This document shows positions 50,620 through 64,000 of a stretch of 64,000 nt of DNA, one piece after another. Source of the DNA: Ferrimonas futtsuensis DSM 18154 (GTDB lineage: Bacteria > Pseudomonadota > Gammaproteobacteria > Enterobacterales > Shewanellaceae); contig NZ_AUGL01000026.1 of NCBI RefSeq assembly GCF_000422645.1, positions 1 through 64,000 on the forward strand, in the 5' to 3' direction. The notes beneath the pieces are model-generated. The model did no database searches. It was not told the origin of the DNA and was given only the letters and a program-made list of their open reading frames with translations. The position numbers and the translations under genes were made by a program. Positions within the stretch are counted from its first letter, which is position 1, and each line of letters begins with the position of its first letter.

Positions 50620-50629
50620 GCCTGTTCCA

Positions 50630-50662
50630 CGAAAAAGCCCGCCAACTGGCGGGCTTTTTGTT
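50630..50662. terminator. Bidirectional terminator yggX/sir accessory run
   Basis: AAAAAGCCCGCC-AACT-GGCGGGCTTTTT hairpin marking the boundary between the ygg block and the sir locus; serves yggX (+) and the last gene of the leftward sir run (-). Confidence 0.92.
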
Positions 50663-50667
50663 GTCTG

Positions 50668-51489
50668 TCAGACCCTTTTGCGCTTGAAGATCTGCCAGCC
50701 GGCAAACAGGCCGGCGGCGCTCCAGGCGAACATCAGCAGCAACATCAGCCACAGGTTAGAGTTCTGGGAAGTCACCAGGGAGAGTACGCCGCTGACCGAC
50801 TGATGCTCCACGTACACCAGGTTGGAGAGGCGGAACAGATCCACCGGGTTGGCCATCATCAGCGCCCTGACCCAGGACTCGCTGCCCTCGGCCACAATCA
50901 GTCCCAGCAGTACCAGGTCGTAGAGCAGCACCAGCACAAACCACAGCAGCAGGCAGATGGCCATCGCCCTGCCCTTGGTGCTCACCGCCAGGCTCACCAG
51001 ATAGCTCACCAGCAGGAAGGTGCAGGCCAGCAAAGCCGAGCTGAAGATAAACAGGGCGAAGGCGGCGGTCAGCTCCAGCAGCTGATCGGTGCCCACCACA
51101 AAACCCAGAGCCACGGCGGTGACCCCGAACCCGATGAGGCAGGTGGTGGCCAGTACCGCCCCCTGCCCGAGGAACTTGCCCAGCAGCAGCTGCCAACGGC
51201 TGATGGGGTAGGAGAGCAGCAGCAGCAGGGTGCCCCCTTCGAGCTCCCCCACAAAGCTGTCGTGGCCGAGAAGCACCGCCAGCAGGGGGATCACCAGGGC
51301 CGCCAGGGTTGCCAAGGCGGAGATGGTGGGCGCCAGCTCCGGGGTGCTCAGCTGGCCACTGACCGCCGAGCCAAGAAAAGCCACCGCCAGGGATAGCAGT
51401 GCAAAGCTGAGAGAGGCAAAAACTACCCAGCGGTGGCGAAAACCGTCGATAAACTCTTTGTGGGCCACCAGGGCCACCGGGTTCAGCAT
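50668..51489 (-). CDS. NosY-like ABC transporter permease
   Basis: 273-aa ABC-2 type membrane protein with about six TM helices, resembling NosY of the NosDFY complex that assembles copper centres of nitrous oxide reductase. Here it ends the leftward sir run. It overlaps the nosF-like ATPase gene by 7 nt. No nosZ is present, so the likely client is SirA, whose family has a heme-copper active site (inference). Confidence 0.85.
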   Translation of the reverse strand: MLNPVALVAHKEFIDGFRHRWVVFASLSFALLSLAVAFLGSAVSGQLSTPELAPTISALATLAALVIPLLAVLLGHDSFVGELEGGTLLLLLSYPISRWQLLLGKFLGQGAVLATTCLIGFGVTAVALGFVVGTDQLLELTAAFALFIFSSALLACTFLLVSYLVSLAVSTKGRAMAICLLLWFVLVLLYDLVLLGLIVAEGSESWVRALMMANPVDLFRLSNLVYVEHQSVSGVLSLVTSQNSNLWLMLLLMFAWSAAGLFAGWQIFKRKRV

Positions 51490-52394
51490 GGTAACTCCTC
51501 CAGTTGCGCCCTAAGCTGGCAGCTCTGATACACCTCAGGCAGCGATGGGGGCAGGACATTGAAGTCGAAAATCTTATGGTGGGCGGTCAGGTGCTCAAGC
51601 AGCTGTCGCTTCTGCTCCTGGCCGACCATAAAGGCTTTGCTTTGAGGGTCATACATAGCCGCCAGCAACATATCACGACTGGCCAGCAGCTCTGCTCCGG
51701 CCACCTCCACCTTGGTGGGAAGCTTGTGCTCCTGGCGCAACTCCTCGATGCTGCCCCGGGCCAGCTCGCGCCCCTTGGCCAGGATCAGGGCCGAGTCCAG
51801 ATGGCGATCGATGAGGGTCAGCTCATGGGTGCAGATGATCACCGCGGTGCCATTGTTGCGCAGGGCGGCCACCAGTTCGTAGAACAGGGCGCTGGCCTGG
51901 GGATCCAGGCCCACGGTGGGCTCATCCAGGATCAACACCCTGGGCTCAGCCAGGATCGCCTGAGCCAGCCCCAGGCGTTGACGCATCCCCTTGGAGTAGG
52001 TGCGCACCTTGCGGTCCCTGGCGTAATCCAGCTGCAGCCTGGCCAGCACCTCCTCCACCCGTTCCTTGCCTACCCGGCGTAGGCCGGCAAAATAGCCCAG
52101 CAACTCTCCGCCACTGAGGTTGTCATAGAGGCTGACATGCTCAGGCAGGTAGCCGATAGACAGAGAAGCCCGGTGTTCGGTCCGGCCCGGATCCCTGCCA
52201 TTGACCCGGATCTGGCCACGATCCGGGGTGCTCAGGCCGAGGATCAGTTTGATCAGAGTGGTCTTGCCGGCACCATTATGGCCCAGCAACCCCAGCAGTT
52301 CGCCGGGGCGCAGAGACAGGCTGACCTCATCCAGAGCCTGAACCTCGCCAAAGCGCTTGCTCACCTGTACCACTGAGACTGCCGATTGTGTCAT
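51483..52394 (-). CDS. NosF-like ABC transporter ATPase
   Basis: 303 aa. Walker A GHNGAGKTTLIK, ABC signature YSKGMRQRLGLAQ, Walker B VLILDEPTVGLDP and an H-loop. Together with the NosY-like permease and the NosD-like periplasmic protein it would form a NosDFY-type complex. The start overlaps the nosD-like stop by 4 nt. Confidence 0.9.
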   Translation of the reverse strand: MTQSAVSVVQVSKRFGEVQALDEVSLSLRPGELLGLLGHNGAGKTTLIKLILGLSTPDRGQIRVNGRDPGRTEHRASLSIGYLPEHVSLYDNLSGGELLGYFAGLRRVGKERVEEVLARLQLDYARDRKVRTYSKGMRQRLGLAQAILAEPRVLILDEPTVGLDPQASALFYELVAALRNNGTAVIICTHELTLIDRHLDSALILAKGRELARGSIEELRQEHKLPTKVEVAGAELLASRDMLLAAMYDPQSKAFMVGQEQKRQLLEHLTAHHKIFDFNVLPPSLPEVYQSCQLRAQLEELPC

Positions 52395-53662
52395 AGGTTA
52401 CTTCTTTCAATGACGGGAGAGATTAACGGTCGGCTGTCGGTAATGCCTTCCGCCTGGGGCGGCAACATCTGCCGCTCCAGCCAACGCAGAACCCCCACAA
52501 CCGGGGATTCCATTAAAAATTTTGCTTCCGGGTAGACCCAGAACAGCCTATCCAGGGCATCATTGGGGCGATAGGGAAGATCGCCGATGCCATCTCGGTC
52601 TGTGTCCCAGCCGCCGTAGCTGCTCCAATAGTTGCCCCGTCCCTGGTGGCTCCACTCCAGCACCACGTCCCCGACGTAACGCACCTGCACCTGATTGGCG
52701 ATGAAGTCGTTAGCGAACACCTGGTTGCCCTCCCCTCCCAGCGCCATGGCGATGCCTATCTGGCTCTGGGCGAAGCGATTGCCTGAGATGGTGTTATCCT
52801 GGGCGCCATAGACGTAGATCCCCTTGCCTTCGCCATCAAAAACAGTTGCAGCATCAGGGTTATGGATGCGGCTTACCAGATTATCCTGAACCCGTACGCC
52901 ACTGCTGATATTGAGCAGGATGCCGAACTCTACCGCATCCTCCACGCGGTTGCCCAGTACTGCTCCCCCTTCGGAACCCATAATTGCGTAGCCGCCCACG
53001 ACATTGTGACTGGTGTTGTGACTGGTGACCGTCTCCCTGGCATACATATAGTGCACCGGATACTGCTGATCGCTCATGGTGTTGGCGTCGATCACCACCT
53101 CCGCCACACTCTCCACATAGACGCCATCACGACCGCCACTGAGACGGTTGCCGCTGATGACCGCCTGGCGGCTGCCCTTGAAGTAGATGTTGTCTCCCCG
53201 GGCAACCACGGGTCGGCTGGTGTTCCCCTCAATCAGATTACCGAGGATCTGAAACCCCTCCCCGGCATCGAAGCGGATACCAAAGCCGTCACCGCGCAGG
53301 GTGTTGTTGGCAATCAGCACTCGGGAGACGCCCTGTTCACCGCGAATGGCGGCGTCCATCTCCGGCAGCTCATCCCCCCAGTTCTCCACCGTCAGTCCGT
53401 GAAGCTCGATGCCGTCGGCAGCAAGCAGGATGGCGGTCCCCCGACCGCCGCCATCGAAGATCACCCCAGGCTGGCCTCGCAAAATCAACGACTGACCGAT
53501 GCGCCAGTTGCCAGGGTAGAGACCGGGCTCAAGCCGCAGCTCATCACCGGGCCTGGCCGCCTCAAGCCAGTGGGCGAGCTGTTGTGGCCCCTGCACGCTG
53601 ATGCTCGCCCCCTGACACAGCAGGGGCAGAAACGTCAGTAGAAACAGCAGCCCTCTCAACAT
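52391..53662 (-). CDS. NosD-like periplasmic copper-assembly protein
   Basis: 423 aa with a signal peptide (MLRGLLFLLTFLPLLCQGA) and a right-handed beta-helix of parallel repeats (IxxNxxxGN-type). In nos systems NosD is the periplasmic partner of NosFY in metal-site maturation. ATG 53662 has GGAG 5 nt upstream; the extension to 53701 is rejected. Confidence 0.88.
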   Translation of the reverse strand: MLRGLLFLLTFLPLLCQGASISVQGPQQLAHWLEAARPGDELRLEPGLYPGNWRIGQSLILRGQPGVIFDGGGRGTAILLAADGIELHGLTVENWGDELPEMDAAIRGEQGVSRVLIANNTLRGDGFGIRFDAGEGFQILGNLIEGNTSRPVVARGDNIYFKGSRQAVISGNRLSGGRDGVYVESVAEVVIDANTMSDQQYPVHYMYARETVTSHNTSHNVVGGYAIMGSEGGAVLGNRVEDAVEFGILLNISSGVRVQDNLVSRIHNPDAATVFDGEGKGIYVYGAQDNTISGNRFAQSQIGIAMALGGEGNQVFANDFIANQVQVRYVGDVVLEWSHQGRGNYWSSYGGWDTDRDGIGDLPYRPNDALDRLFWVYPEAKFLMESPVVGVLRWLERQMLPPQAEGITDSRPLISPVIERSNL

Positions 53663-53672
53663 CTGGACTCCG

Positions 53673-54197
53673 TCAGTGATGCTTGTGCTTGTGGTGACCA
53701 CCCTTGCCCAGCATCTCCAGGGTCAGCTGGTCATAGGCACGAACCTTACCGCCATAGGAGTTGGCAAAGGCCTCCGCCATATTACGGGAGCTGAAACTGG
53801 CCAGGGTGGGGCCCATGGCACCGTGTCGGGAGGATCCCACCACATACCAGGCCCGGTTCGCAGGAATAAAGGCGCTGTCGGAGGGCTTGTCCCAGTCGGT
53901 CTGGGCCAGGTCATGAACCCAGGCCTGTTCCACCTGGCGCCGATTCTGGGGCTGAAGGATAAACTGGAACAGGTCGCTGGTAGAACAGAACGCGGTATCT
54001 CCAGGTTGTCCCTTGACCCGGGCGACCCCCTTAGGACCCGGATAACGGGTAATGAACATGCCACACTGGTGGCAACGTCGCTCGTCGGTGACCTGAATGC
54101 TGTGGGTCTTGGGGCCGGCCACCGGAGTCGTGTCCGCTACAGATTGGCCGCAGCCGGTCAAAACCAGGGGCAGAAGGAGCAACAGGAGGTTACGCAT
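53673..54197 (-). CDS. NosL-like copper-binding lipoprotein
   Basis: 174 aa. Lipobox LVLTGC (Cys16). Cu(I)-binding motif CHQCGM at 42-47, as in NosL copper chaperones. An unusual C-terminal tail ends HHKHKHH, with five His in the last seven residues. Probably an outer-membrane or periplasmic copper donor to SirA maturation. Ten bp before the nosD-like gene. Confidence 0.9.
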   Translation of the reverse strand: MRNLLLLLLPLVLTGCGQSVADTTPVAGPKTHSIQVTDERRCHQCGMFITRYPGPKGVARVKGQPGDTAFCSTSDLFQFILQPQNRRQVEQAWVHDLAQTDWDKPSDSAFIPANRAWYVVGSSRHGAMGPTLASFSSRNMAEAFANSYGGKVRAYDQLTLEMLGKGGHHKHKHH

Positions 54198-54244
54198 AGT
54201 CTTTCTCTTGGTTGTGGGGAGGACCAGCCTCCCCGGTACTCATA

Positions 54245-55189
54245 TCAGATGGTGTAGATCTGCCCCGCGTAGAGCAGGAAGAGTCGCAGGCACATCATGC
54301 CGCAAATCACACTGCCCCCCGTGAGGTAGAAGGCTCTGCCCGAGTGGGCAAACTTCTGACCCAGAGCGAAGTTCAGCATCAGGGGAAGAACGAAGCCGAG
54401 GCCGATGACCCCGCCCCAGAACAGGCTGGACCAGCCTCCCTGAGAAAACGCCTGGGTGGCCGCCTGGCTGGGTCCGGCGCCGAAGATAAGGCCGCTGAAC
54501 AGCATGAACAGGAACATCGCCTCAACCGCCATGATCGGCCATTCGGCGCCGTGCAGCAGGGTCATATCCTGGGAGTGCAGAGACTCACCAAACCACTTCA
54601 CCGCCACCATCTTGGCCATGGCCGCCCCCGCGGACAGGCCGGAGACGATGAACAGCGCCGGCAGCAACGAGGTATTGATGATGGGGAAGCGAATCAGCGC
54701 CGAGATCAGGAAGCCGGTGTAGGCGCAGACGGAGACCGCCAGCACCAGGGTCAACCACTCCAGGGGAGTGCGCAGGGTAGCCAGCCTCTCCAGCCAGGGC
54801 ATCAGCGACTTCAGCTGGGGGAAGCGGGCCAGTTCACCACGCAGGGCGATGGCGGCAATCACCGCGGTCAGCGGAATGTAGAACAGCAGTACGATAACGC
54901 CCAGGGACATCACCGAATTCAGGTTGTAATAGAGCAGGATTTTCCAAAAGAACAGTGGGTTGGAAAGATCCAGCACCAGGCACAACATCCCCAGACAGAT
55001 GGTGACAAAAGAGACGACACCCGCCGCCTTGAGCAGCGGCGTATCCTGGGTCTGCTTCTTGTAGATCCGCATTAACAGGGCAATGGCCAGGGCGCCACCG
55101 GAGATCCCCGCAAAGAACAGGTAAACCGCAATGGGCCAGGGCCAGGCGATGGCGTCGCCAAGACCGGTGGAAAAATCGATTCCGTTCAT
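54245..55189 (-). CDS. sirD: NrfD-family membrane quinol dehydrogenase subunit SirD
   Basis: 314 aa with about 8 TM helices and the PSRC/NrfD fold; starts MNGIDFSTGLGDAIAWPWPIAVYLFFAG. With SirC it oxidises menaquinol and passes electrons to SirA in the periplasm. ATG 55189 has GAGGTG upstream; the upstream extension overlaps sirC and is rejected. Four bp after sirC. Confidence 0.88.
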   Translation of the reverse strand: MNGIDFSTGLGDAIAWPWPIAVYLFFAGISGGALAIALLMRIYKKQTQDTPLLKAAGVVSFVTICLGMLCLVLDLSNPLFFWKILLYYNLNSVMSLGVIVLLFYIPLTAVIAAIALRGELARFPQLKSLMPWLERLATLRTPLEWLTLVLAVSVCAYTGFLISALIRFPIINTSLLPALFIVSGLSAGAAMAKMVAVKWFGESLHSQDMTLLHGAEWPIMAVEAMFLFMLFSGLIFGAGPSQAATQAFSQGGWSSLFWGGVIGLGFVLPLMLNFALGQKFAHSGRAFYLTGGSVICGMMCLRLFLLYAGQIYTI

Positions 55190-55193
55190 CTTG

Positions 55194-55904
55194 TTACACC
55201 TCAGGCTTGGCAATAGGGATGTAGTGAACACTGGGCTCGGTGCCCAGGTGTGGCTTCACCCTGGCGGTGTTCTTGACCGCCAGCAGTCGGGCGACGTAGG
55301 ACTTGGGATCGCTGGCATCGCCAAACACCAGGGCGTCAAACTTGCACTGACTGACACAGGCCGGCAGCTCACCTTTGGCCAGTCGGCTTTGCAGACAGAA
55401 GTCGCAGTTCTCCGCCACCTTGGTTTCACTGTTGATAAATCGCACCTTGTAGGGACAGGCGGCGATGCAGTATTTGCAGCCGGCACATTTGTCGCCGTCC
55501 ATGGTGACGATGCCGGTTTTCTCATCCCGGTACGCCGCCCCTGTGGGGCACACCATCACGCAGGGGGCGTTGTCACACTGTTGGCAGGAGACCCGCACAT
55601 ATTTGCGATCGCAATTGCACTCGGTCTTGCCACAGCGGGGACATACCGCACCCGGCACCCGGTCGCTCTGACGCTCCAGGGTCAGGCGGGCAACGCCCTC
55701 CGGCAGGTTGTTCGCCTGGTTACAGGCATCTTTACAGCGGCCGCAGCCCACACACTTGGTCTGGTCAAACAGCAGCACATAGTTGGGTCCCTCACCACCT
55801 CCGGCGGCAGGATCGGTGGAACCGCACCCTCCCGCCAGCATGGCTACCGACCCCACGCCCAGGCCCTTCAACAGGCTGCGGCGCGGTAACATCACATCGT
55901 TCAC
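55194..55904 (-). CDS. sirC: Periplasmic 4Fe-4S ferredoxin SirC (NrfC-like)
   Basis: 236 aa. Twin-arginine signal PRRSLLKGLGVGSVAMLAGGC, which also resembles a lipobox, followed by four Cys clusters (CVGCGRCKDAC, CQQCDNAPCVMVC, CAGCKYCIAAC, CDFC...CVSQC) and an extra Cys group CPRCGKTECNC. Carries electrons from SirD to SirA. GTG 55904 is preferred because GGAGG lies 5 nt upstream; ATG 55892 is an alternative. Confidence 0.9.
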   Translation of the reverse strand: MNDVMLPRRSLLKGLGVGSVAMLAGGCGSTDPAAGGGEGPNYVLLFDQTKCVGCGRCKDACNQANNLPEGVARLTLERQSDRVPGAVCPRCGKTECNCDRKYVRVSCQQCDNAPCVMVCPTGAAYRDEKTGIVTMDGDKCAGCKYCIAACPYKVRFINSETKVAENCDFCLQSRLAKGELPACVSQCKFDALVFGDASDPKSYVARLLAVKNTARVKPHLGTEPSVHYIPIAKPEV

Positions 55905-55927
55905 ATCATCCTCCAACTCTCTCTGTG

Positions 55928-56626
55928 TTATTGCGGCGTGGCTGCCGCTTTTATCCTTGCTTTAGCCCGTTCCACAGCCCGTTGGATGGCTGCCTCCCGG
56001 GTACCGGCTGCGCCGCTGTCCAGCAGCACCTGCCAATGTTCCACAGCTTCCTGATACTGCCCCTGCCGATAGGCATGGGACGCCAGCAATTCACGGCTGG
56101 TGAAATCGGTGTTATCAAGGCTCAGAGCCCGGGAAACCGCCGCCAAGGCGTCGACTCCCAGGGCCCGGCCCTGTTGGTAGTAAAGGTATTTGGCCTTCAG
56201 GCCCAGCAAGGGGGCAGTTTCCCCCTGCAGCGCCAGGGCCTGATCGAGGGCGTCCACCGCCTCACCATAGTGACCTCCGGCCGCCTGGTCCTCTGCCAGG
56301 GCCAGCCAGGTGGTGGCATCGTCGGGGCGGCGCTCGGCCTCCATCATGCTTTGGTTGATCCTGCTCTGAAGCAGGTAATCGACCCGGGTTTCGGTGTGTT
56401 GCTGTCGCCAGCCGGAAAAATGCCCCAGGCGGGAGTAAGCAAGCAGGGAAATGAGGATGAGGAAAACCAGCATCAACGCTGGAGCCCACCACCCCGCCCT
56501 GGGCAAAGAGGGGCCCTCTCCCAGCGCAGTCTCCCCGGCGGCCCGGAGATAACCTCTGTGACCGCAAGCCAGGGTGAATGCCGCGGCCAACAGTGCCAGG
56601 GAGATGCTTAGGGAAAGGGTCATCAT
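55928..56626 (-). CDS. CcmI/NrfG-like TPR protein
   Basis: 232 aa: two N-terminal TM helices (about 5-22 and 46-66) and three or four TPRs (90-225). This architecture matches CcmI/NrfG proteins that hold apocytochrome for heme attachment. Within the sir run it probably presents apo-SirA to the dedicated heme lyase encoded divergently. Confidence 0.8.
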   Translation of the reverse strand: MMTLSLSISLALLAAAFTLACGHRGYLRAAGETALGEGPSLPRAGWWAPALMLVFLILISLLAYSRLGHFSGWRQQHTETRVDYLLQSRINQSMMEAERRPDDATTWLALAEDQAAGGHYGEAVDALDQALALQGETAPLLGLKAKYLYYQQGRALGVDALAAVSRALSLDNTDFTSRELLASHAYRQGQYQEAVEHWQVLLDSGAAGTREAAIQRAVERAKARIKAAATPQ

Positions 56627-56665
56627 GCTGAATACAGCTCCTAACTGAAATCCGGATCGAACCTG

Positions 56666-57475
56666 TTACTGCTGGCCGAACATCTGGGACATGGAGCCCA
56701 TGCCCATGGCGCCCATGCCCATGGCGCCCATTCCCATGCCCATACCCATCTCTTTGTGGGCATCACCGGGCTTGTTGGCGTCAATAAGCTCAATCTCAAA
56801 CACCAGGGCAGAACCCGGGGGAATGGCTCCCATTCCCTGCATGCCGTAGCCCAGCTCGGCAGGAATGGTGAATTTGTAGGTGGAGCCCACTGGCATCAGT
56901 TGCAGCCCCTCTTCCCATCCGGCGATGGAGTTGATCAGAGCCACTTGGCGGGGCTGGGCGTTACTGTCGGCACGGGTATCCTGAAACACGGTGCCGTCCA
57001 CCAACTGGCCCTTGTAGTGCACTGTGACGGCGTCTTCACGGGCGGGCATCTTGCCCTCGCCCTTCACCAGCACCTCATACTGAAGACCGGATTCGGTGAC
57101 GGTTACCCCCGGCTTGCCGGCATTGTCAGACAGATAGTCGCGGGAGGCCTGGGCCACCTCTTTCATACGGGCGGCTTTGCGCTCATCCTTACGGGTATTA
57201 AGCAGCTGGGCCCTGGCGTTGAGGGCGTCGATCAGTGCCTCCTTATCCAGGGAGGATTGACCTTTAACGGCATCCTCGAACCCTTTGAGTACCTGCTCCA
57301 GATCGGCGCTGAGGCCAAACTCTTCCTGCATAGCCAGCTGGCCATTGAGGTAGTTGCCCAGAGAAGCGCCAATGGCGTAAGACTCAGTGTTAGCGTCGGT
57401 TTGCGCCTGCTGCGCCAAGGCGGGAGCGGATGCGAAGGCCAGGGCGATGATCAGGGGTTTGATTGCGGTTTTCAT
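56666..57475 (-). CDS. Periplasmic FKBP-type prolyl isomerase with Met-rich tail
   Basis: 269 aa. Signal peptide (1-21), N-terminal FkpA-type dimerisation domain (about 25-125), and an FKBP catalytic domain with VTVHYKGQLVDGTVF and AIPPGSALVFEIELI. The C-terminal 28 residues contain ten Met in Met-Gly/Ala-Met-Gly repeats, encoded by a short tandem DNA repeat (56698-56750). Met-rich periplasmic tails often bind Cu(I). It may fold SirA or help supply copper; ATG 57475 starts the signal peptide. Confidence 0.9.
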   Translation of the reverse strand: MKTAIKPLIIALAFASAPALAQQAQTDANTESYAIGASLGNYLNGQLAMQEEFGLSADLEQVLKGFEDAVKGQSSLDKEALIDALNARAQLLNTRKDERKAARMKEVAQASRDYLSDNAGKPGVTVTESGLQYEVLVKGEGKMPAREDAVTVHYKGQLVDGTVFQDTRADSNAQPRQVALINSIAGWEEGLQLMPVGSTYKFTIPAELGYGMQGMGAIPPGSALVFEIELIDANKPGDAHKEMGMGMGMGAMGMGAMGMGSMSQMFGQQ

Positions 57476-57512
57476 GAGTATCTCTCTTCTAATCCAGTTA
57501 GTACCTAAAGGC

Positions 57513-57935
57513 TCAGGGCTTCTCGGTTGGGCGCCCTGACATCCGCCATCCGAAGATGCCATCAGGCATCTGGCGGACGTTGGTGTAGCCCATCTGCATC
57601 ACCGAATAGGCCGCGATCTCGCTGGCGTTGCACAGGCGGTTGGCGCAGTAAAAAATCATCTGGGCGTTCTTGTCCTTGGGCAGCAGCTCTTTCCAGTTTT
57701 CTGTGAAGAAGTGCACCGCCCCGGGAATGAACCCCTGAGCCCAGAGCTCCAGGGTATTCACGTCGAAGAAGTAGACATCCTTATTGCCTACCAGCTGTTC
57801 TGCTTCCTGCATGCTGATGTAATTCAGTTCCATACGATATTCATCTGCCGGCCGAATCTCGTCGGCGCCGCCGGCCTGAACCGGGGCAGCCATCAGCAGG
57901 GACAGAGCCGTGGCAGCTGCAATGGGGTAACGCAT
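57513..57935 (-). CDS. Periplasmic rhodanese-domain protein
   Basis: 140 aa with a signal peptide (MRYPIAAATALSLLMAAPVQA) and one rhodanese domain with catalytic Cys97 in IFYCANRLCNAS, plus Cys102 nearby. Rhodaneses transfer sulfane sulfur; beside sirA it may handle sulfur intermediates or heme/copper-site thiols. It is the first gene after sirA, 57 bp away. Confidence 0.88.
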   Translation of the reverse strand: MRYPIAAATALSLLMAAPVQAGGADEIRPADEYRMELNYISMQEAEQLVGNKDVYFFDVNTLELWAQGFIPGAVHFFTENWKELLPKDKNAQMIFYCANRLCNASEIAAYSVMQMGYTNVRQMPDGIFGWRMSGRPTEKP

Positions 57936-57992
57936 GGTGTGTGCCTCTCTCATTTGAATGGCCCCCGGTTGCCCGGGGGCGCTTAGGGTTGG

Positions 57993-60017
57993 TTACTCTT
58001 TGTCGTAACCGGCGTCATCCATGATGGCCTGAGCTTCCTGAACGTAGATCCAGGCGTCGTTCATCATGCGCTGCGCCATGGAGGGTCCGTGGACACCCCA
58101 GGAGCCGTCTTTCTCGATCTTGGCGGCGGACTCACGGGCCTTATCGACCATCATCAGTACCTTGGCCTTCTCGGAAACGGACAGGCGGGTCACATTCATC
58201 AGCTCGTCGATACGCTGAAGCTGTTTAACCACCTTGGCGTGAGTCTCCTTAACGGGCTCCTGCCACTCCATCACTTCGCCGTAGATCTCCATCTGGTCTT
58301 CGAAGTGCAAGCCTTCGTCGAGCTCAGACTGGAACTGGCTGTGACAGCCTTTGCCACTGACCACAGTACGGTCCAGGGCAGAGGTGCGGGCACAGGTCCA
58401 CATCAGATCCAGATAGGAGTAGCCATCCTCATCCTGAGCCACAGTCCAGCCCTTGGTGGCGGAGGTGCGGGGCTTGCCTTCCGGCGGATTCAGGGTCTTC
58501 TTGGTGGGAGAGACCTTGATGTTCCAGATGTGGGAAGCACGAACGTTGTCGAAGCCAGCCTCATCGGGGAACTGGATGGCGGTGAACTTCTCGCAGCTGC
58601 CCATGTTGGGCATGTGGCAAGAGGAACACTCGGATTCGCTGTGAGGCTTGGAACTGGCGTGGAACTCGGCCTGAGTCTCGTGACAGTCGGCACACTCCTT
58701 CTTGATCTTGGTCTTGGTCACGTGGGACAGGTAACTGCCGTCGGTAACCTCGTGAGGATCGTGACAGGTGGTACAACGCATGCCCTTGTCATAGTGAGCA
58801 GAGTTGAACATCTGACCACCTTCGGTACCGCAGGATGGGCAGGCACCTTTCATCTTCACGGTGAAGGCATCTTCAGGCTTGGCGTTGGGGCCTTCGGCCA
58901 TCTCTGCCACGTAATTGAAGCGCTGGTGACAGCGTTCACAGTTGGACGGCATGCCGCCACCTACGCCACCATCGAGGTGGGCACCGGCACCGTGACACTC
59001 TTCACAGGCAATACCCTTGGAGATGGTGTGTTCACGCAGCTTCCTGGGGTCACCCAGGGCGTCGAAGTACTCCTGCTTGTTCTGGAAGTCGAACTTGAAG
59101 GTGTGGCACACCTCGCAGTAAGAGGACGCGGGCTGGAACAGGAACATCTTGTCCTTCTTGGCGCCGTAGGAGTTCACCCCCCACACGTCAGATCCGGAGT
59201 AACCAAACTCTTCCATCACTGCCGGGAACTCAGGGATCACCTCCTTGATTTCACGAGCCTTCTCAGGCGTCAGGAAGGTCAGCCAGTTCACAGAGAACTG
59301 GTTACCACCGGCGTGCAGAGTGCCTGTGCCATCGCGCAGCAGACCATCTTTTACGTGGTAGGAACCGCGAACCAGCCAGGCGTCAATAAAGCCGTACTTG
59401 GTTCTGGGAGTACCGATAACCGCGTAGATGGCGTCCTCGGTAATGCCCTGAGGCAGGATCGGCACGTCGGTACCGAACATCCCCTTCTTCAGGTCACCGC
59501 CGGTTTCCACCATCTCCTCGGGGAAACGCACAGTCTTGGCGTGACGGGAGCGCTTCCACTTCTCGTACTGGACGCCGTGGCATTCGCCACACTTCTCGGG
59601 GCCAATAAACTTGTTGGGGTAATCCAGAATGGACTTGGCGCCCAGGCGATACTGAACCGCCATGGGACGACCAATCTTGTCACTGTAGTCCTCTGAGTTA
59701 CCCGTGTGCAGATACTCCTCGCCACGGTCGGAGATGTGGGGCTTACCCACCATCCGGCCCTCAGGGGCATAGGTCTTAAACACAGGGTGGTTCTCAAACA
59801 GGAAGTCCCACAGCTCCTTCTCCTGGATGATGTAATCATGCAGGGTCTTCACCCCCTTCGCCTCTTCAGTCCCGTCAGGGTTGGCGAAGATCATCTGGGC
59901 CTGGGGGGACTGCTTATAGCCCTGGTCACTCTGGGCGGCGTCTGCCGCAACCGCTGAACCAGTCCATACACAGACCAGGGCGGCCAAAGACGCCTTTATT
60001 TTCCAGCCTTTCATCAT
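57993..60017 (-). CDS. sirA: Octaheme c-type cytochrome sulfite reductase SirA/MccA
   Basis: 674 aa, signal peptide ending AVA-AD. Reduces sulfite to sulfide with six electrons in the periplasm. Seven CXXCH sites at 143, 301, 338, 360, 415, 442 and 464, plus an eighth unusual C-X15-CH (Cys542, Cys558-His559, GKGCH), the family hallmark. In Wolinella MccA this site carries the catalytic heme next to a Cu(I) held by two Cys. Non-heme Cys393, Cys396 (CPSC) and Cys475 are present and could supply them. No CXXCK, so it is not NrfA. AGGAG precedes the ATG. Confidence 0.95.
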
Positions 60018-60340
60018 TATCTCCTACAAAAGGGTTTTGTATTTCTTGCCTGGCATTGCTTTTTGTGTCCAAGCCTGAAGCCAATTAGGTTGGTAATTGC
60101 AAGAAACGCTATAGATAACAACAGAAGAACGGCCGTAAAAAGTGGATTTCAAGCACAAATCGGGTTCGCTTTATGGCCTCAATGCAACCACCCCTGACAA
60201 TTACCAAAAAATACCCACATGAGCAGCAACTTAGCCAAAATCGACCCATTTGTGATTTAGAGTTTTCGAGCCATTTTCAGGAGATAAAACAGATAAAAAA
60301 AGATAAAAACAGAATATTTTACCTAGGAATAAATGGTAAT

Positions 60341-60356
60341 TGTCACCGAGATCACA
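60341..60356 (+). promoter_or_regulatory. CRP-like site in the sir intergenic region
   Basis: TGTCA-CCGAGA-TCACA matches 9 of 10 half-site positions of TGTGA-N6-TCACA. Anaerobic respiratory genes in Shewanella are commonly CRP-dependent, which makes the site plausible. It overlaps the right copy of the 12-bp TGGTAATTGTCA repeat. Confidence 0.45.
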
Positions 60357-60488
60357 GACAGCCACCAGTTGACAAATCATCCATAAAAAACCAATTCAAC
60401 AACAAACATTCCCGGCTCACAAAATTAATTCTTGCCAAGAGAAAGGACTATTTATAGGTGATAGAGTCATATTTAAACCCATGACAAA

Positions 60489-60507
60489 AACCTAGCCCCC
60501 TTAGGTT
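60489..60507 (+). promoter_or_regulatory. Hairpin before the ccmF-like SD
   Basis: AACCTA (60489-60494) / TAGGTT (60502-60507) with a 7-nt loop ends five bp before the GGAGG ribosome site (60512-60516) and could influence translation of the GTG-started gene. Confidence 0.35.
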
Positions 60508-60522
60508 TACCGGAGGCTGACT

Positions 60523-62424
60523 GTGATCCCTGAGATAGGCCACTTTCTACTGATACTGGCAACGGCAACCTCGTTGTTGACCGGTCTGTTCCTGCTGCTT
60601 TGGGGCAGATCCGCAGAGCTCTATCTCAACCACTTTGTCCGGCCACTCTCTTACTTGTGCGCCTCACTGGCCCTGGGATCCACAGTCATCCTGGTGTACA
60701 GCTTCCTGACCGATGACTTTTCCGTCGCCTATGTGGCCAACCACTCCAACAGTCACCTGGCCTGGTACTATAAGGTTGCCGCACTCTGGGGCGGCCACGA
60801 GGGCTCCATGCTGTTCTGGGCCCTGGGACTGGCTCTGGTCACCGCCGTAGTGGCCGCACGCCCTCATCACCCTCACCGCTTCGCCAGCCGCACTGCATCA
60901 ATACTGGCCTTGCTGAGTTTTGGCTTTCTGCTGTTTATCCTGCTGACTTCCAACCCCTTTGATCGACTGCTGCCCGCAGTGCCCATCGAGGGGCGGGACC
61001 TCAATCCGATGCTGCAGGATATCGGCCTGATTCTGCACCCGCCCATGGTGTTTGGGGGCTATGTGGCCCTGGCGGTGCTGTTTGCCGGTGCCGTAACCGC
61101 CCTGGGGCGAGGCCATATAAAAGGCGCAGAACTGGCCTGGCTCAGGCGTTGGAATCTGCTGGCCTGGTTTATGTTGACCCTGGGAAATCTGTTTGGCTCC
61201 TGGTGGGCTTACAACGAACTCGGGTGGGGAGGGTGGTGGTTCTGGGATCCGGTGGAGAACGCCTCCTTTATCCCCTGGCTGCTCAGCACCGCCCTGCTTC
61301 ACACCCTGCATCTGGCCCGAACCCAGAATGCCCTGGTGTTGACCTCACTGGTCCTCAGCCTGGGCGGATTCATAGTCAGCCTGATCGGCACCTTCCTGGT
61401 TCGTTCCGGCATCATTCAATCTGTGCACGCCTTTGCCTCAGACCCACAACGGGGCAGTGGCGTGCTCATACTGCTGCTGGCCACCGCCCTACCCGCCCTG
61501 ACCCTGCTGGCCTGGCAAGCCCCCGCCATGGCCCGTGGCCAGGCTCTCAACGGCCAGAGTCGTCACTGGCTGGTGATGGTCGGAGCCCTGTTACTGGTGG
61601 TCGCCGCCCTCTCTGTACTGCTGGGCACCTGCTACCCCTTTATCTACGCAGCCCTGAATCTGGGCAGCATCTCGGTGGGAGCGCCTTACTTCAATACCGT
61701 GTTTATCCCCATGGTGCTGCTGGCGGCCCTGCTTCTAGGTTGGGTGATAACGCCTCCCTCGACCCCCACAGGGTTTCGAGTGGCACTGCTGCTTTTGTGC
61801 GGCGGCGGTGCCACAGCTCTGACTCTGTATGCCAGCAGCGAGCGACCAGACTGGATGTGGATGGGACTGATGTCTGCCTCCTGGCTGGTTCTCACCCTAC
61901 TCCTCTGTGGTTATCACCACTGGCAGCAGTCCAGGTTTAACCTTTTCCTGGCCCCCTGGCTTGCCCATCTTGGGGTGGCGGTGTTTGTGTTGGGCGCAAC
62001 GGTACTGACCCATTACGAGGAGGCGGTCATGGTGCGCATGGGACCGGGCAACGGCCGCACCCTGGCCGGCTATACTGCGGTGTATGAGCAGACACTGAGC
62101 GTCCAACAACGCAATTATCAGGCAAGCGAAGCCCTCATTCGGCTTGACAACTCAAGTAAGCAAGCACTCACATACATCCGTCCCCAGAGACGCACCTACC
62201 TGGATGATCGCAGTGAGGTCTCCATCGCCGGGGTGTACCACTCCCCACTGTCCGACCTCTATATCTCCATGGGCCCGTCCATCAATGACAATCAGTTTCT
62301 GGTGCGAATCAGTCACAAACCCTGGGTAAGACTGCTCTGGCTTGGCGGGCTGCTGACCGCCTTTGGGGGCTTGCTGGCCTGGCGGCGCAGCCGCATCACT
62401 CACTACCAGGAGTACAACGGATGA
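60523..62424 (+). CDS. CcmF-like dedicated cytochrome c heme lyase subunit (SirE/NrfE type)
   Basis: 633-aa polytopic membrane protein of the heme-handling family. The WWD heme-binding loop is at about 234-246 (GWGGWWFWDPVEN); conserved His in GGHEGS and LHPPMVFGGY would ligate heme. GTG start with GGAGG 6 nt upstream. It probably attaches heme to the atypical C-X15-CH site of SirA, like the extra lyases of other Sir and Nrf systems. Overlaps the ccmH-like gene by 4 nt. Confidence 0.92.
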   Translation: MIPEIGHFLLILATATSLLTGLFLLLWGRSAELYLNHFVRPLSYLCASLALGSTVILVYSFLTDDFSVAYVANHSNSHLAWYYKVAALWGGHEGSMLFWALGLALVTAVVAARPHHPHRFASRTASILALLSFGFLLFILLTSNPFDRLLPAVPIEGRDLNPMLQDIGLILHPPMVFGGYVALAVLFAGAVTALGRGHIKGAELAWLRRWNLLAWFMLTLGNLFGSWWAYNELGWGGWWFWDPVENASFIPWLLSTALLHTLHLARTQNALVLTSLVLSLGGFIVSLIGTFLVRSGIIQSVHAFASDPQRGSGVLILLLATALPALTLLAWQAPAMARGQALNGQSRHWLVMVGALLLVVAALSVLLGTCYPFIYAALNLGSISVGAPYFNTVFIPMVLLAALLLGWVITPPSTPTGFRVALLLLCGGGATALTLYASSERPDWMWMGLMSASWLVLTLLLCGYHHWQQSRFNLFLAPWLAHLGVAVFVLGATVLTHYEEAVMVRMGPGNGRTLAGYTAVYEQTLSVQQRNYQASEALIRLDNSSKQALTYIRPQRRTYLDDRSEVSIAGVYHSPLSDLYISMGPSINDNQFLVRISHKPWVRLLWLGGLLTAFGGLLAWRRSRITHYQEYNG

Positions 62425-62807
62425 GAGTTATTGTTCTGCTGTGCCTATCGCTTTTCTGTCTGCCGCTCAGCGCCGCCTCAGACAGCAGTAACCTGAGCCA
62501 GCGGGCAGAACGCCTGGCAAGCACACTGCGCTGCCCCGCCTCGGTCAACCAGACCCTGGCTGACTCGGAGGCGGCCATCGCCTTTGAACTCAAAGGACTC
62601 ATTGCCCAGCAACTCAGGGCGGGCCATCAGGAGGAGCAGATTGTCCAATACCTGGTGGAACGCTACGGCGAACAGATCCGCTACCAGCCTGGCCTCGCCG
62701 GGGCCACCGCCCCCCTGTGGCTGATGCCTCTGCTGCTGGTCGGCTTGCTACTGATGGTGTTGATCTGGCCCCGTATGCTGCGCCGCCCACCAGGACTAGG
62801 AGAATAA
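62421..62807 (+). CDS. CcmH/NrfF-like heme lyase partner with a single-Cys motif
   Basis: 128 aa: signal peptide (to about residue 19), CcmH domain and a C-terminal TM helix. The canonical LRCxxC redox motif reads LRCPAS: Cys38 is kept but the second Cys is Ser41 (codon TCG). It therefore cannot form the usual intramolecular disulfide, though it could still make a mixed disulfide with apo-SirA or the thioredoxin. Follows ccmF-like gene with a 4-nt overlap. Confidence 0.88.
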   Translation: MRVIVLLCLSLFCLPLSAASDSSNLSQRAERLASTLRCPASVNQTLADSEAAIAFELKGLIAQQLRAGHQEEQIVQYLVERYGEQIRYQPGLAGATAPLWLMPLLLVGLLLMVLIWPRMLRRPPGLGE

Positions 62808-62809
62808 AG

Positions 62810-63406
62810 ATGAAAGCCCTGACCCTGACCGCCGCCCTGTTCACCTCCCTGATGCTGCCGTCCCAGGCAAGCGCCTCAAACCTGGAGAAGGTGTACGGGA
62901 CCGGTGCCCCCATCCCAAAACCGATGATCATGAATAAATTTGTGGAGTTCACCAACGCCCGCAAGCCTCCCGAGCTGGTGTTCCATGGCCGGGACGGCGC
63001 CCCGGTCTCCATGAATCGGTACAGGGGCAACCTAACCCTGATTAACATCTGGGCCAGCTGGTGTGGTCCCTGTCTGAAGGAGTTACCCGCCCTGGAGCAG
63101 ATGGAGCGGGACTACCAGGGGCAACCTCTGGCTGTGGTACCGGTTTCCATCGATGAGCAAAGCCCGGATGAGGTGTACGAGATCCTGGCCAACTACCAGC
63201 TGGAGAAGATAGATACCCTGTTTGATGCTGACCACAGCATGCATGGAGTGATGCCGGTAAACGTCGTGCCCGCCACCTATGTGCTGGACGGCAACGGTAA
63301 TATCGTTGGTTTTGTCCGCGGCTATCTGGACTGGGAAGACCCGGATGTCGCGCCCTATCTGGACAAGCTTATCGCCAAATACAGCGCAGCCAGGCCCCAG
63401 GATTAA
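62810..63406 (+). CDS. CcmG/TlpA-like periplasmic thioredoxin
   Basis: 198 aa. Signal peptide (MKALTLTAALFTSLMLPSQASA), then a thioredoxin fold with active site WCGPC at 84-88 and cis-Pro in VNVVPATYVLD. It probably reduces the Cys pairs of apo-SirA, including the 15-residue-spaced pair, before heme ligation. Two bp after the ccmH-like stop, with AGGAG upstream. Frame extension to 62717 is rejected. Confidence 0.92.
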   Translation: MKALTLTAALFTSLMLPSQASASNLEKVYGTGAPIPKPMIMNKFVEFTNARKPPELVFHGRDGAPVSMNRYRGNLTLINIWASWCGPCLKELPALEQMERDYQGQPLAVVPVSIDEQSPDEVYEILANYQLEKIDTLFDADHSMHGVMPVNVVPATYVLDGNGNIVGFVRGYLDWEDPDVAPYLDKLIAKYSAARPQD

Positions 63407-63416
63407 ATCCGCGGAT

Positions 63417-63447
63417 GCAAAAAGGGCGGCCCTTGGCCGCCCTTTCT
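63417..63447. terminator. Bidirectional terminator at the right end of the sir locus
   Basis: AAAGGGCGGCC-CTT-GGCCGCCCTTT hairpin with five A on one side and TCTCT on the other, between the thioredoxin gene and the convergent partial gene. Confidence 0.88.
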
Positions 63448-63480
63448 CTAGGTGAGCAAGTCAGATTCGGCGAAAGCCAA

Positions 63481-64000
63481 CTACATCGCCATGGTGGACT
63501 TCTTCATCCAGGCCAGCGAGTAACCGTAGAAGGGGATCACCCAGGCGGCGGAGTGCTCATCCTGATAGAAGCGGTAGAAGTAGAGGGGCTCTTCGGACAG
63601 GCTCTGACGGCGCAACTCCCGATAGAAGGGCAGCGCGGCCTGGGTTACCTTTTCCGGCTTCAGCAGGTTACGCGACTGGGTTTCAATCTTGAACACATCC
63701 ACCTTATGGCCGCCAATATCTGCGGTATAGCGGGTGAACTCCCCCTCAAAGTTGTACTTGATGGGCGAGGTCAGGCAGTCCTGATCGGTCACGCAGAATG
63801 ACGCAAAGAACAGCCCTTTGGAGTCATCTTTGTAAACCAATGAGATGTTGTGATCGACCCGCACCAGCAGTTGGTCATTTCTGGGGAAGTAGACATCGGC
63901 ACTGTACATATGCTCGGTCAGCTCCCCCTGATGATAGGGAACCGTTGGCAACTCAATGCGGTTGTACCTGATGCGCTGCTCCATGATCTTCGCCAGTTCG
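63481..64000 (-). CDS. Hypothetical protein, 5' end beyond the window
   Basis: At least 167 aa from an internal Met (63984), but the frame stays open to the window edge (ELAKIMEQ...), so the true start may lie outside. No recognised domain: mixed beta-rich sequence with aromatic C-terminus (VIPFYGYSLAWMKKS) and two Cys. Convergent with the sir heme-lyase run, separated by a terminator. Confidence 0.7.
   Translation of the reverse strand, partial: ELAKIMEQRIRYNRIELPTVPYHQGELTEHMYSADVYFPRNDQLLVRVDHNISLVYKDDSKGLFFASFCVTDQDCLTSPIKYNFEGEFTRYTADIGGHKVDVFKIETQSRNLLKPEKVTQAALPFYRELRRQSLSEEPLYFYRFYQDEHSAAWVIPFYGYSLAWMKKSTMAM

Follow-up and report, generated by a model that had tools for sequence, protein, structure and literature searches.

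The sir locus of Ferrimonas futtsuensis, a Shewanella-type sulfite respiration locus with a putative NosLDFY copper-loading module

Introduction

Which enzyme is served by copper-assembly genes of the nos type when they stand in a row with the gene of a sulfite reductase? The question is raised by a 64,000-nucleotide stretch of contig NZ_AUGL01000026.1 of Ferrimonas futtsuensis DSM 18154 (positions 1–64,000, hereafter the window), in which nosL-, nosD-, nosF- and nosY-like genes lie downstream of sirA, the gene of an octaheme heme-copper sulfite reductase of the MccA family. Judged from its sequence, the segment 50668–63406 is the Ferrimonas copy of the known Shewanella-type sir locus and is ordinary for these bacteria. 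By analogy with its studied relatives, it very probably serves sulfite respiration, with SirC and SirD as electron donors, SirEFGH for heme attachment, NosLDFY for copper loading and a control exerted by CRP through SirR. Loci of this kind have already been published; the value of the present analysis comes from the copper module and from the SirA kinds that emerge on comparison. Published articles are cited by their PubMed Central (PMC) number.

In the scheme proposed here, SirD would take electrons from quinol and hand them to the Fe-S protein SirC, which would reduce the periplasmic octaheme SirA. Sulfite would then be reduced to sulfide at a heme c lying beside a Cu(I) ion held by two cysteines. 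SirE, SirF, SirG and SirH, presumably together with the housekeeping Ccm system, would attach the hemes, above all the one at a CX15CH motif, and NosL would pass Cu(I) to a NosD–NosF–NosY complex loading the SirA copper site. CRP would act on SirR, which would in turn switch on the sir operon. Sulfite reduction, heme attachment by SirEFG and the CRP–SirR–sirA chain of control are carried over, by analogy, from Shewanella oneidensis and Wolinella; copper loading by NosLDFY is what we infer from genome content and co-inheritance.

The SirA enzyme and its predicted copper site

The sirA gene (57993–60017, minus strand) is an open reading frame (ORF) of 674 amino acids, with seven CXXCH motifs at positions 142, 300, 337, 359, 414, 441 and 463 and one CX15CH motif at 541. 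In a single-sequence search of solved chains, its product matches Wolinella MccA over the full length (4rkm, E 4e-210), and MccA is the sole solved match at E ≤ 1e-3 (4rkm/4rkn, full length). A 22-row SirA profile gives 1086 bits for MccA, the next solved chain reaching 21.6 bits over 35 positions. The original prediction had placed this octaheme in the MccA/SirA family, and among solved structures it groups indeed with MccA, not with the hydroxylamine or nitrite octahemes.

Two cysteines of SirA, C395 and C474, align with the copper ligands of MccA, which are reportedly Cys399 and Cys495 of the Wolinella enzyme (Hermann et al. 2015). Both are kept in 93 of 93 ungapped alignment rows, the other two of the 95 rows being gaps and the rows not deduplicated. 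An extra cysteine, C392, lies three residues before a copper cysteine in a CPSC motif. The predicted structure is silent on the geometry of C392 relative to the copper ligands because its confidence is low around that region (predicted local distance difference test below 50 over residues 388–448 and 461–528, mean 64.5).

SirA is present in all 14 Ferrimonas genomes, in 20 long copies. The host protein shares 98% identity with F. sediminicola SirA and 60–67% with the Shewanella SirA proteins. When 369 genomes drawn evenly from the class were searched, six gave a match at E ≤ 1e-3; only that of the host was full length, and the other five scored at most 31.7 bits. Further loci used for comparison come from Campylobacterota, either of type 1 (22 of the 37 matches of at least 735 bits) or of type 2, the Wolinella kind (16 of the 48 scoring 665–726), and from two Deferribacterota. 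Broken or fragmentary sirA-like genes were also seen in one genome of Deferribacterota (G727) and one of Campylobacterota (G511). The record titled Marinobacter nauticus DP3N21-5 (L009) has its sirA at the same contig coordinates as a Ferrimonas genome (G011), and its title looks misassigned.

It is unlikely that sulfite is a secondary substrate of the octaheme, the main one being nitrite, hydroxylamine, tetrathionate or, with the help of the rhodanese, thiosulfate. A rhodanese gene does follow sirA in all 58 testable gammaproteobacterial loci (those of Shewanella and Ferrimonas, hereafter gamma loci), as an FKBP gene does in the same 58, and in Dethiobacter a SirA-like octaheme gene clustered with rhodanese genes has already been described and is upregulated on thiosulfate (PMC10376724). 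However, the SirA profile matches only MccA above chance among solved chains, and S. oneidensis needs its orthologue to reduce sulfite (PMC6976685).

The putative NosLDFY copper module

The four genes of the module follow one another on the minus strand, and the best solved chains for their products are all NosL or NosDFY proteins. The nosL-like copper chaperone gene (53673–54197, in the sirJ position) has a C..CGM motif and, by eye, a lipobox-like start (7og7 NosL, E 3e-39). The nosD-like gene (52391–53662, sirK position) encodes a beta-helix protein of the copper family, which scores 367.5 bits with TIGR04247 (cut-off 300) and matches NosD of 7o0y at E 3e-86. The ABC ATPase and permease genes, nosF-like (51483–52394, sirL position) and nosY-like (50668–51489, sirM position), find NosF and NosY of the same structure at E 6e-68 and E 5e-53.

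The host genome holds one NosL and one NosD, both in the sir locus. NosL is found in 13 of the 14 Ferrimonas genomes, all 15 matches lying no more than about 6 kb from a sirA, and NosD exceeds its cut-off in the same 13. Across the gamma loci, nosL, nosD, nosF and nosY stand beside sirA in 56 of the 57 testable cases; the sole miss is the second locus of F. senticii (L006), whose genome carries the full set at its other locus (L007).

Further insight comes from ten Shewanella genomes that carry a pair of sir loci, in which the second locus is without sirEFH or is cut before it. Mean NosD identity is 77 and 72% within the two copy classes vs 51% when both copies of a genome are compared, the corresponding values for SirA being 96 and 97 vs 79. 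For all genes between sirA and sirR, these two included, mean identity is higher within a copy class than between copies of one genome. On average, each NosLDFY set thus appears to have been passed on together with the SirA of its locus, which is what linked inheritance of whole loci would produce. The private copper-loading route put forward in the original prediction is backed by this co-inheritance and by the genome content, and NosLDFY most likely loads the SirA copper in this host.

The module could instead be what is left of a former nitrous oxide reductase cluster, placed by chance beside the sir genes and without any role for SirA, which is a distinctly improbable origin. The proteins do match the NosL and NosD models and the solved NosDFY and NosL structures (7o0y, 7osf), the set being the same as in the nos cluster of nitrous oxide reducers, and in one strain, Shewanella sp. 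ANA-3 (L017), the sir-locus nosL is interrupted. The Shewanella genes have also been treated in print as denitrification genes: those of S. oneidensis MR-1 served as an argument for nitrous oxide chemistry (PMC2886065), and a nosDFYL set without nosZ in a Shewanella was called curious (PMC9415397). From the gene sets, the nos genes of both articles would be those of the sir locus. A remnant should decay, yet none of the 15 Ferrimonas nosL matches (that of the host and 14 others) has an internal stop. The set stays beside sirA in the 56 gamma loci mentioned above, the ANA-3 locus included, it is co-inherited on average with each SirA copy, and it is kept in 13 of 14 Ferrimonas genomes in which NosZ does not exceed its cut-off. 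Unlike in nos clusters, the enzyme gene of the locus is sirA.

Some observations nevertheless weigh against the proposed scheme. With TIGR04244 and TIGR04246, NosZ passed the cut-off in 0 of 14 Ferrimonas genomes, an absence that has no positive control, since no control genome scored over the cut-off either; weak sub-cut-off matches occur in one genome with one model (19.4 bits) and in 11 of the 14 with the other, where they reach no more than 28.8 bits and cover the last ~60 positions. A third model, PF18764, found no match anywhere. In the copy-class comparison, the extremes of the identity ranges overlap for NosL, NosD, NosF, NosY and SirR. One Ferrimonas genome (G007, locus L106) has an intact-looking SirA, no NosL and no NosD over the cut-off, and NosL is near sirA in 0 of 22 type 1 Campylobacterota loci. 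As regards the regulatory part, a direct action of Crp on sirA, with sirA and sirCD in separate operons, has been described in S. oneidensis (PMC4412017).

It follows from L106 and from the type 1 loci that SirA does not always depend on NosLDFY. G007 is the only one of the 14 Ferrimonas genomes without NosL, and its sir locus encodes a copper receptor of the TonB-dependent type (701 bits with TIGR01778, cut-off 472). A Mucispirillum metagenome-assembled genome has PCuAC and SCO1/SenC genes behind the fusion gene next to its sirA (L239, 13211–14690). These are single cases, to be taken as leads for an exchanged copper supply. The comparison of loci also suggests that, in different lineages, unrelated proteins have taken over the supply of copper to this one enzyme family. 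The G007 locus (L106, 1492–14217) also encodes a rhodanese, an FKBP protein, SirE, a SirG/CcmI-like protein, DsbA- and thioredoxin-like proteins, SirR and a divergent SirA; no SirC or SirD match was found in the 20-kb L106 stretch.

If NosLDFY indeed loads SirA, then SirA is the likely client of the Shewanella nos genes that come without nosZ, which would explain why copper genes are kept without the nitrous oxide enzyme. NosDFY is known from a multicopper centre, and a testable question is whether it can load one Cu(I) ion held by two cysteines beside a heme. A literature search combining MccA, SirA or sulfite with NosL, NosD or NosDFY, conducted mostly outside subscription journals, found no test of NosLDFY on SirA; a single paper is listed for SirA, sulfite and Ferrimonas in combination. 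PMC6976685 nowhere mentions copper, NosL or rhodanese, so the copper arm was not studied there.

Three kinds of SirA loci

Comparison of the loci suggests that they fall into three kinds. Those of type 2, represented by Wolinella and Sulfurospirillum (MccA 4rkm), resemble the host locus in having a CX15CH octaheme with two copper cysteines, together with FKBP, a SirC/SirD-like pair and NosL (16/16 for each of the four). They differ from it by the absence of both rhodanese and third cysteine (0/16), and their NosL usually has two motifs (13/16). The one type 2 locus that was scanned (L228) has an FtsX-type permease and an ABC ATPase behind NosL, and a ResB–CcsA type lyase behind sirD; a two-component-like pair lies upstream, by eye. 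In type 1, a rhodanese fused to a six-heme protein is encoded directly beside sirA (22/22), and FKBP, SirC, SirD and NosL are all missing (0/22). With the two Deferribacterota, this fusion amounts to 24 of 24 loci (L200–L221, L238, L239). One of the two fusions scanned has a weak cytochrome b561 match (PF01292, 27.6 bits, cut-off 30.1), which would suggest a membrane quinol dehydrogenase replacing SirCD. The Shewanella and Ferrimonas loci combine the type 1 and type 2 sets.

The enzymes differ along the same lines. All 86 complete gamma rows (not deduplicated) carry C392, as do 34 of 35 type 1 genomes and both Deferribacterota genomes; it occurs in none of the 16 type 2 loci and in none of three further rows (L062–L064). 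The rhodanese goes with the third cysteine, and NosL goes with FKBP and SirCD. The atypical heme site is CX15CH in the 86 gamma rows and the 16 type 2 loci, CX17CH in 21 of the 22 type 1 loci and in Deferribacterota, and CX18CH in the remaining type 1 locus (L207). In an unrooted SirA tree of 65 rows, type 2 occupies one side of a branch (100/100), and type 1 with Deferribacterota another (100/99). The G007 sequence joins the latter on a long branch (100/100), and the other gamma sequences lie between the two sides.

It is possible, though doubtful, that two chemical kinds of SirA exist, one linked to rhodanese and bearing CPSC (Shewanella/Ferrimonas, type 1 and Deferribacterota), the other being MccA without CPSC; the rhodanese would be a working part of the first kind, docking on SirA and its electron donor or feeding sulfur species to them, and the copper supply would be swappable. 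If so, the gamma SirA enzymes would be more than MccA with extra helpers, and the exchangeable copper modules would be NosL–NosDFY, NosL with an FtsX-type ABC transporter, a TonB copper receptor, or PCuAC with SCO1. Two narrower ideas were set aside. A rhodanese acting as sulfur donor to the copper site is weakened by its own sequence, the catalytic cysteine being absent from at least nine of the 22 type 1 domains, present in seven and not read by the pattern in six. A tie between the third cysteine and NosDFY does not fit type 1 and Deferribacterota, which have CPSC without NosL near sirA. That NosDFY delivers sulfur instead of copper to the CPSC/copper site, with the rhodanese as sulfur carrier, is very improbable: rhodanese and C392 do co-occur (both in gamma and type 1 loci, neither in type 2), but type 1 has them with no NosDFY beside sirA, its rhodanese lacks the catalytic cysteine in the cases just counted, and in gamma loci NosDFY is constantly paired with the copper carrier NosL.

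Predicted electron donors and heme attachment

Between sirA and nosL, five further genes are read on the minus strand. The rhodanese-like gene (57513–57953) has a signal-like N-terminus by eye and an active loop CANRLC. It is followed by an FKBP-type prolyl isomerase gene with a signal-like N-terminus (56666–57475), in the position named sirI from the operon order of PMC6976685, and by sirG (55928–56626), encoding a TPR apocytochrome chaperone of NrfG/CcmI-like type. SirC (55194–55892) is a 4Fe-4S subunit, NrfC-like, with a twin-arginine-like start by eye, and SirD (54245–55189) an NrfD-like membrane quinol oxidase (PF03916, 218 bits). The opposite arm, on the plus strand, encodes the CcmF/NrfE-type heme lyase SirE (60523–62424), the CcmH/NrfF-type protein SirF (62421–62807) and the TlpA/ResA/DsbE-type thioredoxin SirH (62810–63406).

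The nearest curated families of SirC, SirD, SirE, SirF and SirG are NrfC, D, E, F and G of nitrite ammonification (NrfABCD, NrfEFG), a system from which the sir locus differs by its MccA-type enzyme gene. SirC and SirD both fail the equivalog cut-offs (220.6 bits with TIGR03149, cut-off 377.6; 236.2 bits with TIGR03148, cut-off 347.6), and SirF and SirG are also under theirs. SirE is under the cut-off of TIGR03145 (660.9 vs 927.3) and passes the NrfE model PRK10369 (441.7 bits, cut-off 394). Such scores fit Sir proteins that would be paralogues of the Nrf proteins.

In S. oneidensis, SirEF is essential and SirG and SirH are important for SirA maturation, with some help from CcmI, and SirEFGH has no appreciable role for the other cytochromes tested (PMC6976685). 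The quinol-oxidising SirCD pair and the private heme lyase proposed earlier for this locus both agree with experiments in that organism (PMC6976685). Upstream sirE, sirF and sirH accompany sirA in 42 of 53 gamma loci, and all 11 misses are in a genome or stretch holding another sir locus.

The genes sirC and sirD are absent from seven of the 58 testable gamma loci (L012, L013, L014, L015, L019, L054 and L055), in which rhodanese, FKBP, sirG and nosLDFY are present. The SirA of these loci must therefore use another electron donor, perhaps CymA. Tandem sirA–rhodanese–FKBP–sirG–sirC–sirD units with a single upstream sirEFH were seen in four Ferrimonas loci (L003, L004, L107 and L008), the last of which has nosL duplicated too.

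SirR and CRP

From its sequence, the ORF cut by the right edge of the window (63481–64000, minus strand) is the C-terminal part of sirR, the gene of a ToxR/CadC-like regulator, which continues past the window to a probable GTG start at contig position 64776; the ORF list has a longer TTG frame. Taken whole, the gene encodes one Trans_reg_C winged helix followed by one membrane-like helix, by eye. Each of the 49 gamma loci of at least 22 kb has a SirR relative. The original prediction, which called the locus complete, was right about its thirteen genes; it overlooked this regulator, and its end point at 63406 is too early, since sirR also belongs to the locus.

According to PMC6976685, CRP acts through SirR on a single operon in S. 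oneidensis. In the host, a CRP-like site with one mismatch lies ~105 bases upstream of the sirR start (L105, 2881–2896). Such a site, at one mismatch or fewer, precedes sirR in seven of eight further Ferrimonas loci and in none of three Shewanella loci. Over the whole locus, there is no excess of CRP matches at two mismatches or fewer (two vs 1.9 expected). A site in the sirA–sirE gap (60341–60356) is probably due to chance: when 12 related gaps were delimited by their stop-to-stop ORF ends, none had one at one mismatch or fewer.

Locus layout and genomic setting

Ten leftward and three rightward genes had been announced for the segment. All are open on the expected strands in the ORF list, and profile and structure-chain searches match their products to named families or solved homologues (MccA, NosD, NosL, NosY, NosF). 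Packing is tight, with overlaps of 4 bp between nosD and nosF, 7 bp between nosF and nosY and 4 bp between sirE and sirF. The terminators expected at both ends could be recovered: one hairpin (50632–50659) lies between nosY and yggX and is in the terminator listing, and the other (63420–63444), between the convergent sirH and sirR, is missing from that listing and was found by folding. Folds of 50625–50668 and 63410–63455, on both strands, beat shuffled sequences (z −2.2 to −5.9).

The sir locus of S. oneidensis MR-1 was reportedly the subject of Shirodkar et al. in 2011. Its formula is sirAIGCDJKLM, sirEFH, sirR (PMC6976685), and the host follows it, with sirA preceding sirI, G, C, D and JKLM, a divergent sirEFH and sirR close by. 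The Shewanella loci share its gene families and their order, again with two divergent arms, a heme lyase of their own and a SirR of the ToxR family. The place of sirR varies: it adjoins sirH in the host and in L003, L004, L005, L009, L010, L047 and L061, whereas it lies downstream of nosY in Shewanella, as it does in the Ferrimonas loci L007 and L108.

The description of the locus as one island holds in the sense of a compact gene cluster. It does not hold in the sense of a recently transferred mobile element: SirA was found in none of 72,556 plasmid records, G+C content shows no shift (0.55–0.61 in the locus vs 0.55–0.60 in the 10 kb to the left), and the yggX/mutY flank is shared with two relatives, a third sharing yggX alone. 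An Rfam search of the window gave no match at gathering scores. Just beyond sirR, near the contig end, are two tRNA-Phe genes (L105, 3068–3143 and 4685–4760).

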